Origin: Planctomycetota bacterium
GTDB taxonomy: Bacteria; Planctomycetota; Planctomycetia; Pirellulales; Pirellulaceae
Length of the DNA: 64,000 nt
Assembly: GCA_026692905.1 (NCBI GenBank)
Contig: JAPLNL010000119.1
Location: 248,001 to 312,000, forward strand
Reading direction: 5' to 3'
Shown here: positions 3,486 to 58,259 of the stretch, one piece after another
How the letters are laid out: the number at the start of each line of letters is the position of its first letter
Position numbering within the stretch: the first letter of the stretch is position 1
Translations under genes and position numbers: made by a program
Notes under the pieces: generated by a model
Seen by the model: the letters and a program-made list of their open reading frames with translations, nothing else
What the model was told of the DNA's origin: nothing
The model's database searches: none

Positions 3486-3526
3486 TGCCGCACAGAGTTA
3501 AGCTATCGGGCGGATTTTTGCGATTT

Positions 3527-3602
3527 CGTGCCCTGTCCTAAAACTCGTGCCCTGTCCTAAAACTCGTGCCCTGTCCTAAAACTCGTGCCTAGTCCTAAAA
3601 CT
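3527..3602. repeat. 19-bp tandem repeat, four copies
   Basis: Four head-to-tail units of CGTGCCCTGTCCTAAAACT; the fourth has two substitutions (CGTGCCTAGTCC...). It fills most of the ispD-tat gap (3322-3671) together with repeat B. No coding signal was seen; the open frame across it is low-quality. Recent expansion by slippage is likely. Confidence 0.9.
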
Positions 3603-3671
3603 GTGCTCGTGCTCGGTCACAAAAAACGACTCGATCAGAGCACCAACGGACATCAAGACGGACCATGAATC

Positions 3672-10026: not shown

Positions 10027-10080
10027 CTAGCACGACGCGCAAGCTAGTGAATCGCTGATGGGGTTTACGCGTCGTACTAG
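10027..10080. repeat. Dispersed palindromic repeat group A, copy 1
   Basis: Left arm CTAGCACGACGCG at 10027-10039 and right arm CGCGTCGTACTAG at 10068-10080, with one mismatch and about 28 nt between them. It lies downstream of xerC. The same arms occur at 11191, 32572, 48955 and in the array at 56901. Confidence 0.88.
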
Positions 10081-18537: not shown

Positions 18538-18675
18538 CATTTTCGTTACGAAGCCCATTAGGCAGGCACACTCGTGAATAGTCAATTTTTATTTCTCGAA
18601 ATAGTTGACTCTTTGAACAATCACGGCTAATCTCCGTTAAAGAAAATTCAATAGCCCCGATGGATTTAATGATGT

Positions 18676-18766
18676 CGCCCATTCGCCCATTCGCCCATTT
18701 CTAGGCAAATCGCCCATTCGCCCATTCGCCCATTCGCCCATTCGCCCATTCGCCCATTCGCCCATT
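18676..18766. repeat. 8-bp tandem repeat (CGCCCATT), 3 + 7 units
   Basis: Three units at 18676-18699 and seven at 18711-18766, each block followed by TCTAGGCAAA. The second block ends 21 bp before the ATG of the frameshifted gene at 18788. The whole arrangement looks like a duplicated cassette with slippage. Unit number could vary between strains. Confidence 0.95.
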
Positions 18767-32571: not shown

Positions 32572-32631
32572 TAGCACGACGCGCAAGCTAGTGAATCTAC
32601 CACCCAATTCAATGTCTTGCGCGTCGTGCTA
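32572..32631. repeat. Dispersed palindromic repeat group A, complete copy
   Basis: Arms TAGCACGACGCGCAAG (32572-32587) and CTTGCGCGTCGTGCTA (32616-32631) are a perfect 16-bp inverted repeat with a 28-nt centre. This is the cleanest copy in the window and is taken as the reference. It sits between the convergent S4 and kdgK genes, where it could terminate both transcripts. Confidence 0.92.
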
Positions 32632-32663
32632 GGTAAATTGGGCCACACTCAGGTTGAACCGAA

Positions 32664-55909: not shown

Positions 55910-56830
55910 CTAGCGTTTTGAAAAACGTTCAGCCAAACCATTCAGCTCAGCAACCGGCGCCGGTCCCTCGTGAAAGTAGATCGCATAACGCAATCGCAAC
56001 ACGCTCTCTTTTTTGAATATGTCGTTTACCGCCGTTTCCGCACCATTCGTATAAGCTGCTTCACCAAAGGGGCTCACGGAAAAAAGTCCGTAGTTGCGAA
56101 CATGATACCGACTTGGTCGAAAATTCTCTGGATGATCAAATAGCGTCACGCCATATCCTTTGCCATCGATTGGTCCCTCGTAGTCCACCCAAGCGGAACG
56201 CTGCCCCCAACAGTCCTTCGTTCCTGTTTTTCCATCGGCATTCATTACTTTACCTTGGCCTTTGTCCTCTCGTTGAGACTCGGCCAACCGAAAACCAAAG
56301 AGCCCCTCCTTGGTATCGCGGAAATTCACATCCGAACCGGCCATCTTAAACTGAATGTCATATTCAAGCATTCTGTTGGCATGAATCGTAATCGTTGTCG
56401 TTTCGATCATGATGTCTGCTGCGTTCCGATCGAGCCAATGATTCGTGACTCGCATGATCGCAGGATTGCCTTCCGAGGTTCGCAGTTCTACGCCTCGGTT
56501 TTCGATTTTCCCTTTCTCGGCCCAGAATTGGAGCTCGTTGACCTCATCGACGGACACCCAAATTCCTTTATGGTGAGGGTGGTCCCCTTGATAATCCTCG
56601 CCGACGATTGGACGAGTTAATAGAGCGCCATCGGCAGCCTTAACTGGGAAAAAAAAGGGTTTTGGCAGACTTTTGGCGAACCGGTAAGTCGTGAATTCTT
56701 TGTCGTTGATCGTTACGGAAACAGTGTCTCCATTTCGAAGAAGTTTGACCGAATCCGCGGCTACGGCGACTTGCGGCATCGCGACTGAAAACAAAACGAG
56801 TATCAATGCTGCGGCTAGGATTTTTTTCAT
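55910..56830 (-). CDS. PmoA-like DUF6807 protein
   Basis: 306 residues with signal peptide MKKILAAALILVLFSVAMPQ and AVAA. Family marker HPHHKGIWVSVDEVNELQFW is at residues about 85-104; LRYAIYFHEG near the C-terminus. The family (PmoA, DUF6807) is common in planctomycetes and Bacteroidetes, annotated as particulate-methane-oxidation-like only by name; it is a beta-sandwich resembling galactose mutarotase. Exported, perhaps involved in sugar handling. No methane oxidation should be inferred. A single gene between repeat C and the tandem array. Confidence 0.88.
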   Translation of the reverse strand: MKKILAAALILVLFSVAMPQVAVAADSVKLLRNGDTVSVTINDKEFTTYRFAKSLPKPFFFPVKAADGALLTRPIVGEDYQGDHPHHKGIWVSVDEVNELQFWAEKGKIENRGVELRTSEGNPAIMRVTNHWLDRNAADIMIETTTITIHANRMLEYDIQFKMAGSDVNFRDTKEGLFGFRLAESQREDKGQGKVMNADGKTGTKDCWGQRSAWVDYEGPIDGKGYGVTLFDHPENFRPSRYHVRNYGLFSVSPFGEAAYTNGAETAVNDIFKKESVLRLRYAIYFHEGPAPVAELNGLAERFSKR

Positions 56831-56900
56831 GTTAGTTGCTAAATCAGGAGGTGAGGAATTGGATGTTTTAGAGACTGTGTAAAAATTCGCATCGTACGCC

Positions 56901-57223
56901 TAGCACGACGCGCAAGCTAGTGAATTCAGTACCTAGCACGACGCGCAAGCTAGTGAATTCAGTACCTGCACGACGCGCAAGCTAGTGAATTCAGTACCCA
57001 GCACGACGCGCAAGCTAGTGAATTCAGTGCCTAGCACGACGCGCAAGCTAGTGAATTCAGTGCCTAGCACGACGCGCAAGCTAGTGAATTCAGTACCCAG
57101 CACGACGCGCAAGCTAGTGAATTCACGCCGGTTCTTCCAAACGCAAGCTAGTGAATTCAGTACCCAGCACGACGCGCAAGCTAGTGAATTCGGCTCCATT
57201 CCACTAGCTTGCGCGTCGTGCTA
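56901..57223. repeat. 33-bp tandem array of group A half-elements
   Basis: Nine direct copies of the left half, each beginning near TAGCACGACGCGCAAGCTAG, at 56901, 56934, 56967, 56999, 57032, 57065, 57098, a degraded one near 57131 and 57165. Spacing is 33 bp (32 for one). The last is followed by a single inverted copy (CACTAGCTTGCGCGTCGTG...) at 57202-57223. Only 7-8 bp differ between units, so no CRISPR spacers. Because 33 is a multiple of 3, both strands show open 11-residue-repeat frames, which I regard as spurious. Confidence 0.95.
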
Positions 57224-57248
57224 CCTAGCCTTCATGATGTCCCGCGTC

Positions 57249-58259
57249 TTATAGCAGGCCCATGGTTGGGTCTAAACCAAACATGCAGTTCATGTTTTGG
57301 ATCGCCGCACCGCTCGCACCCTTGACCAAGTTATCGATGGCCGAAACAAGGATGATGCGAGGTCCGTTTTCGCGGACCGTAATGTCGACATAATTGGTTC
57401 TCGAGACAAATCGCGTTGCAGGCAAATGCGAGACGACTCGAACAAAGGTGCTTGAGTCATAATAGGTGTTCAAGCATTCACGAATCTGATTTGGGGTCGC
57501 CCCGGCAGCCGGATGGACATAAATCGTCGACAGAATTCCCCTCTCCATCGGGGTCAAATGCGGGGTGAAGACAATTTGGGGTTCGACTCCACTGAAACGC
57601 TTCACGATATCCACGATCTCAGGCTGATGGCGATGATTGCCTACTGAGTAAGCTGAAATGCTTTCGTTGGTTTCACAGTATAGATTTCCAAGCTTTGGAG
57701 TTCGACCGGCACCACTGATACCTGACTTGCTATCAACGATGATATCCAACGGCGAAATAAGGCCCTCCTTTAGCAAAGGTGATAGGGGCAAAATTGCAGA
57801 GGTTGGGTAACAGCCTGGATTGGCAACCAGACGACAATCTTTTAATTCGCCCGCAAACAGTTCGGGGAGTCCGTACGGGGTCATTCCCAATCGCCCCGCA
57901 TCCGGGTGCTTTTCGCCATACCATTTTTCGTAAAGTGCCGGCGTACTCAGCCGATAGTCAGCAGACAAATCGATGACGCGACATCCGGCATCCAATAATT
58001 GCATCACGATATGCGCTGATGCCCCATGCGGCAAACAGGAGAAAGCCACATCGCAGCGCTCAGCAACCTGCACCGGAGTCAAATCCTCAACGGGCAGTCG
58101 AAGCCTGCGGACAAGACTAGGATGCATATCGGCAATCATACTACCATCCGCTTGGCGACTGGTCGCTGCAAGGATTTGAACCTGAGGATGCCCAATAAGC
58201 CATTCGATCGCTTCGATAGCCGTGTATCCAGAAGCGCCAATAATGCCTACTCGAATCAT
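57249..58259 (-). CDS. argC: N-acetyl-gamma-glutamyl-phosphate reductase
   Basis: A 336-residue arginine-biosynthesis enzyme reducing N-acetylglutamyl phosphate. NADP loop GIIGASGYTAIE near 6-17; catalytic Cys150 in VANPGCYPTSA; the downstream HRHQPEI and HLTPMERGILSTIYV segments are conserved. Length is that of the single-domain type. No argJ/argB adjacent. The array lies directly after its 3' end, so array copies may affect its message. Confidence 0.95.
   Translation of the reverse strand: MIRVGIIGASGYTAIEAIEWLIGHPQVQILAATSRQADGSMIADMHPSLVRRLRLPVEDLTPVQVAERCDVAFSCLPHGASAHIVMQLLDAGCRVIDLSADYRLSTPALYEKWYGEKHPDAGRLGMTPYGLPELFAGELKDCRLVANPGCYPTSAILPLSPLLKEGLISPLDIIVDSKSGISGAGRTPKLGNLYCETNESISAYSVGNHRHQPEIVDIVKRFSGVEPQIVFTPHLTPMERGILSTIYVHPAAGATPNQIRECLNTYYDSSTFVRVVSHLPATRFVSRTNYVDITVRENGPRIILVSAIDNLVKGASGAAIQNMNCMFGLDPTMGLL

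Follow-up and report, generated by a model that had tools for sequence, protein, structure and literature searches.

A one-armed tandem array between argC and a DUF6807 gene of a Planctomycetota bacterium and its probable origin from a REPIN-like element

The array at the argC–DUF6807 gap

The window analysed here is a stretch of 64,000 nucleotides of contig JAPLNL010000119.1 (assembly GCA_026692905.1) from a Planctomycetota bacterium of the Pirellulaceae. Two co-directional genes of the window, argC and a DUF6807 gene, are separated by a gap which holds a tandem array closed by one inverted arm (Table 1). The initial annotation had described nine left halves stacked head to tail with a period of about 33 bp and capped by a single inverted copy, and both the sequence and Tandem Repeats Finder (period 33, 8.9 copies, score 458, with an alternative four-unit period of 131) bear out the site, the period and the cap. 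Nine units are present, starting at 56901, 56934, 56967 (32 nt), 56999, 57032, 57065, 57098, 57131 (34 nt) and 57165; the 34-nt unit is damaged, so that the arm core GACGCGCAAGCTAG is intact in eight of the nine. The units differ from one another by substitutions, a one-base deletion and this damaged copy. The window contains 15 matches to the core at up to two mismatches against 0.53 expected, which together with the tandem score excludes chance. An Rfam scan of the window gave a tRNA as its sole match and nothing on the array.

Table 1. Features of the array, its surroundings and two unamplified copies of the element in the window
Feature	Position	Strand	Remarks
Tandem array	56899..57197	+	nine units of 32-34 bp, made up of arm, loop-side and flank-side bases; arm core intact in eight
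First left arm	56901..56922	+	22 nt
Damaged unit	57131..57164	+	34 nt; only the second half of the arm is intact, the first being replaced
Last left arm	57165..57186	+	partner of the inverted cap
Loop (centre) of the surviving inverted pair	57187..57201	.	
Single inverted right arm	57202..57223	-	closes the array
Right outer part of the element	57224..57251	-	up to the argC stop codon (57249-57251); comparison by eye
Left flank of the array	56881..56898	+	
argC, N-acetyl-gamma-glutamyl-phosphate reductase	57249..58259	-	upstream neighbour; TIGR01850, 390 bits
DUF6807 gene	55910..56830	-	downstream neighbour; PF14100, 210 bits
Simple (unamplified) element copy	32572..32633	.	left arm, loop, diverged right arm
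Simple element copy	10028..10080	.	diverged right arm

The closing arm is complementary to the first arm of the array at 22 of 22 positions, and the last left arm (57166-57186) forms a strong hairpin with it (-28.6 kcal/mol as single-stranded DNA, z -9.5). The element from which these parts are known consists of two inverted 22-nt arms around a loop of 15-16 nt and is a REPIN-like miniature element. As the initial annotation had it, the form with left arm, centre and right arm exists elsewhere, for example at 32572-32633, with 18 candidate pairs of which two appear to be spurious. The sequence beyond the closing arm resembles, by eye, the outer end at other copies of the element. In many complete copies, again by eye, further inverted ends of approximately TTAGGCGAGCGGC lie on the outside, and the full element may therefore be about 117 bp long.

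A single arm folds no better than its shuffled versions (z +0.97 and +0.84; about 0 in a second test). A single REP is a stable imperfect hairpin, which this arm by itself does not form while the inverted pair does. Among more distant relatives many single arms do fold as hairpins (z down to -4.35), in a test of 31 hand-picked arms which were all chosen for containing GCGNNAGC, so that pairing at the apex is expected in part. The arms of diverged relatives keep GCGNNAGC at their centre while the outer stem changes; we take this central motif to be, possibly, a very stable DNA mini-hairpin.

Open frames on both strands had also been pointed out. They do exist, as ORFs of 88 aa and 89 aa that cover parts of the array, and carry no weight as a coding signal, since the 32- and 34-nt units shift the frame and the modal period is divisible by three in only 15 of 59 arrays of this arm. 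A coding array was rejected on the same ground, the periods not being held to multiples of three. A CRISPR array does not fit either, because the spacers are nearly identical within the array. Two other tandem arrays of the window, at 3526-3606 and 18675-18766, are built of a 19-bp unit (4.3 copies) and of the 8-bp unit TCGCCCAT (11 copies) and are unrelated to the arm.

Abundance of the arm and local origin of the arrays

The core GACGCGCAAGCTAG occurs 629 times in the genome (5.96 Mb, 148 contigs) against once for the same core read backwards, and a longer arm pattern occurs 625 times against none for its control. Clusters of arms were analysed in a sample of three contigs which covers 724,061 of 5,955,990 bases, one of the contigs only to base 220,000. 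Here 113 arm matches at up to two mismatches (reversed-core control: 10) fall into 48 clusters, namely 18 single arms, 15 simple +- pairs and 15 clusters with at least two arms in the same orientation. The +- pair is thus the commonest multi-arm pattern (15 of 48) and -+ never occurs. With 45 further loci, partly picked for strong matches and therefore biasing the set towards arrays, we obtained 76 distinct clusters of at least two arms, 61 of them tandem; an inverted cap is present in 35 of these and absent from 26 at up to two mismatches. Left arms always precede right arms, and -+ was seen in none of the 76. Arrays of the arm also make up 12 of the 24 tandem arrays with a period of 20-60 in the three contigs, a count that excludes the array of the window, which is filed under period 131. 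The search for further arrays of this arm, proposed with the initial annotation, thus places the array at argC as one among dozens of local arrays at many unrelated sites in the genome. Contigs C26, C42, C69, C103, C105 and C138 start or end in arrays, and one array (L057) holds a run of N; since arrays coincide in this way with N runs and contig ends, the longest ones are probably under-counted in this assembly.

Spacers are uniform in any one array and vary from one array to the next. A dominant spacer length is found in 49 of the 52 arrays with at least two spacers, and the modal periods of the arrays range from 24 to 50, with one of 8. The spacers are built from sequence of their own locus. 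The suffix of a spacer matches its own outer flank over 3.09 nt on average as compared to 0.97 nt with permuted loci (54 arrays), and the prefix matches its own loop over 6.17 nt as compared to 2.95 (29 arrays); in neither case was any of 5000 permutations as high. These sets leave out five arrays whose flank is itself array sequence or coincides with a contig end, and before their removal the values were 3.66 against 1.03 (n = 59) for the suffix and 6.15 against 2.83 (n = 33) for the prefix. Among 25 capped arrays with spacers of at least 6 nt, the modal spacer consists wholly of its own loop and its own flank in 15 and is not fully explained by them in 10, the null for the fully explained spacers having a mean of 3.1 and a maximum of 7 in 2000 permutations. 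In the array of the window every spacer opens with the first bases of the loop at 57187-57201 (AATTC), and the fit to the left flank is weak, its last bases recurring as an exact suffix of 3 nt.

Because the periods are specific to the locus and the spacers are built from the own loop and flank, we conclude that a segment of flank, arm and part of the loop was duplicated locally to give the arrays. This agrees with the earlier proposal of a local amplification of one arm rather than a dispersal of whole elements, the match to the own locus being far above that to permuted loci; slippage and an abortive transposition process, the two routes suggested with that proposal, are each possible causes. 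The endpoints of the duplication vary from locus to locus, reaching 0-24 nt on the loop side and 0-20 nt on the flank side, and a fixed cleavage site at these ends was looked for by eye and none was seen.

Candidate transposase and distribution among relatives

The genome contains ten matches to Y1_Tnp. One of them, on another contig (L044; C68:8979-9437), is a HUH/Y1 transposase gene of 153 aa which lies between arm arrays on both sides in the order +++---- gene +++----, with 14 arms at up to one mismatch. On the evidence of position and distribution, this is probably the cognate enzyme of the arm. The protein (L044/L136) carries the motifs NHVH, WTEG and YTLEAQ and scores 23.8 bits with PF01797, just over the cut-off of 23 bits; with NF047646 (REP-associated tyrosine transposase) it reaches 23.1 bits, below the curated cut-off of 80 bits. 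Among solved structures no sequence relative of it was found. The stop codon of the gene (TAG, or TAA in G021) is formed by the opening bases of the arm next to it (L044:1840-1848, L138:1951-1960), and thus the repeat directly abuts the transposase gene.

The two closest homologues in the genus, in G024 (70%) and G021 (60%), are both adjoined by an exact 14-mer of the arm, and other homologues in the genus reach at most 54%. At 36 distinct homologous loci, some of them cut by contig ends and a few remote, similar arms centred on GCGNNAGC lie on both sides of the gene in 26, inverted arms are present in 29 and tandem arms of the same orientation in 14. Tandem arms are a recurring feature next to related transposase genes whose arms differ in sequence, and arrays were also seen in independent genomes (L091, L094 and L138).

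The comparison of the argC gap in relatives, likewise proposed at the outset, covered a genus set of 27 genomes including the own one, with argC in 26. The array is absent from all 19 of the other argC loci that were fetched (six further argC matches lay outside this set), where only scattered matches with three mismatches occur. The sister species G026 has an ArgC protein with 100% identity and the same two neighbours, and its argC gap holds no arm. By eye, that gap (G026:C4; L070, about 1240-1500) contains what appear to be two other paired inverted repeats, so that different families of repeats may be drawn to this site.

Six of the 27 genomes contain the exact core, with 629 occurrences in the own genome, 167 in G026, 13 in G024, 8 in G025, 3 in G021 and 1 in G023. 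Tandem arms make up 19 of 45 clusters in the own genome as compared to 3 of 80 in G026 (Fisher p about 1e-7, each cluster counting as independent; the comparison used, for each genome, the first 100 exact arms listed). In G026 no transposase homologue above 50% was detected, in an assembly of about 620 contigs, so that a cognate gene may have fallen into an assembly gap. Within the same 724 kb of the own genome, a different paired repeat forms tandem clusters in 0 of 25 cases as compared to 13 of 41 for the arm (p 0.001). Both comparisons point to the enzyme. Over about 60 kb of synteny between the own genome and G026, one +-- site is common to both and split by an insert in G026, another site reads ++- in G026 and survives in the own genome as a collapsed remnant, and still others are confined to one of the two species. 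A clean empty site was not found at G026:C4:53917, where the insert in G026 is larger and composite. At least one two-unit tandem, which speaks against the enzyme, is common to G000 and G026; it either is older than a loss of the cognate gene from G026 or came about in the absence of that gene.

Origin of the array and relation to known systems

We favour, with moderate confidence, the reading that one arm of a REPIN-like element was amplified locally to give the array, with growth by slippage or unequal recombination and a transposase as the likely trigger. An initial tandem duplication would have run from a few bases of the left flank through the arm and into the loop, and growth to nine units by slippage or unequal recombination would have left the right arm single. 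The most likely trigger would be the cognate transposase, either nicking a single strand or binding at the arm during replication, with template switching to follow.

The strongest rival, which seems to us rather unlikely, holds that the same local duplication and expansion came about by replication slippage or recombination alone and that the transposase merely spread the elements earlier. Hairpins promote slippage, the four-unit period of 131 bp scores as well as that of 33 bp, as slippage of blocks would give, and the variable endpoints show no fixed cut site, so that unaided misalignment fits them equally well. However, slippage alone would hardly account for the lack of tandems at the other paired inverted repeat in the same contigs, for the few tandems among the 167 arms of G026, or for the tandems beside related transposase genes with different arms. 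Nor do variable endpoints exclude an enzyme, since for E. coli TnpA-REP several in vitro cleavage sites are reported, both 5' and 3' of the REP (PMC8266576).

A bolder form of the favoured reading, which we regard as doubtful, makes the class-3-like HUH transposase itself the driver of a one-sided tandem amplification of the arm that it recognizes. In a rolling-circle-like side activity, its nick at a single arm would leave a free 3' end from which the flank, the arm and part of the loop are copied over and over. This would account for the frequency of tandem arms in the presence of the cognate gene, their rarity where none is detected and their recurrence beside related genes with different arms.

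Selection for a role at argC-DUF6807, as a transcript-end hairpin, a protein binding site or a means of gene spacing, is improbable: the array does lie between two co-directional genes and the end of its strongly folding terminal pair lies about 26 nt beyond the argC stop codon, but the gap of G026 and the other 19 argC loci fetched do without it and arrays of the same arm stand at many unrelated sites. Least probable is that short-read assembly made the unit number or the whole array: arrays do trouble assembly, as the contig ends and the N run show, but the differences between the units serve as unique anchors and arrays occur in independent genomes.

Among known systems, the motifs NHVH, WT and YTLEAQ of the candidate transposase would place it, on sequence, in class 3 of the TnpA-Y1 proteins of Quentin et al. 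2018 (PMC6006769), whose genes are described as lying among REP-like structures. That class is characterized by NHVH, W[TA] (here W followed by T) and Y----Q, a length of about 155 aa and occurrence in Planctomycetes, and its genes are flanked by repeated structures numbering up to about 600 per genome, as the present gene has arms on both sides and 629 exact cores genome-wide. The 5' foot of class 3 is CnGA; by eye, relatives such as L091 and L092 read CCGA before a small hairpin and the present arm reads ACGA. In contrast, the word "tandem" is absent from the main text of that account, and we found no one-armed tandem arrays described in its class 3 section.

As in the REPINs of Bertels and Rainey 2011 (PMC3116915), two inverted repeats with a short spacer form a unit that is dispersed as such. 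That paper reports evenly spaced REP arrays of the same orientation at two places in SBW25 and ordered REP or REPIN clusters which repeat the element together with flanking sequence. Unlike the commonest ordered clusters set out there, which repeat whole REPINs, the present array repeats one arm and keeps the other single, and unlike the REPs described there the single arms do not fold into a strong hairpin. The GTAG REPs and the TIRtrons/TIRYT of Di Nocera et al. 2013 (PMC3733652) share the arrangement of transposase genes with flanking inverted repeats; by eye, the present arm differs from those in having neither a GTAG tag nor the motif GGGGWSAS, and its CGTC is internal instead of tagging an end. 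A literature search for the 11-mer GACGCGCAAGC and its complement gave papers whose titles suggest fortuitous matches in unrelated sequences.

Published work (PMC3733652, PMC3116915) thus already describes tandem clusters of REPs or REPINs together with flanking DNA, and in the literature outside subscription papers, as far as its available text goes, we found no description of one-armed arrays for class 3 or for Planctomycetes. What is new is an amplification that is mostly one-armed, abundant in this genome, rare in a sister species where no cognate enzyme was detected, and recurrent in the transposase clade. The way in which REP clusters form is debated: a paper of 2010 on RAYTs (PMC2817692) doubted slippage or recombination alone and proposed the transposase. 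With dozens of independent, readable arrays, one candidate enzyme and a sister species that carries the repeats but in which the enzyme is not detected, this question becomes testable.
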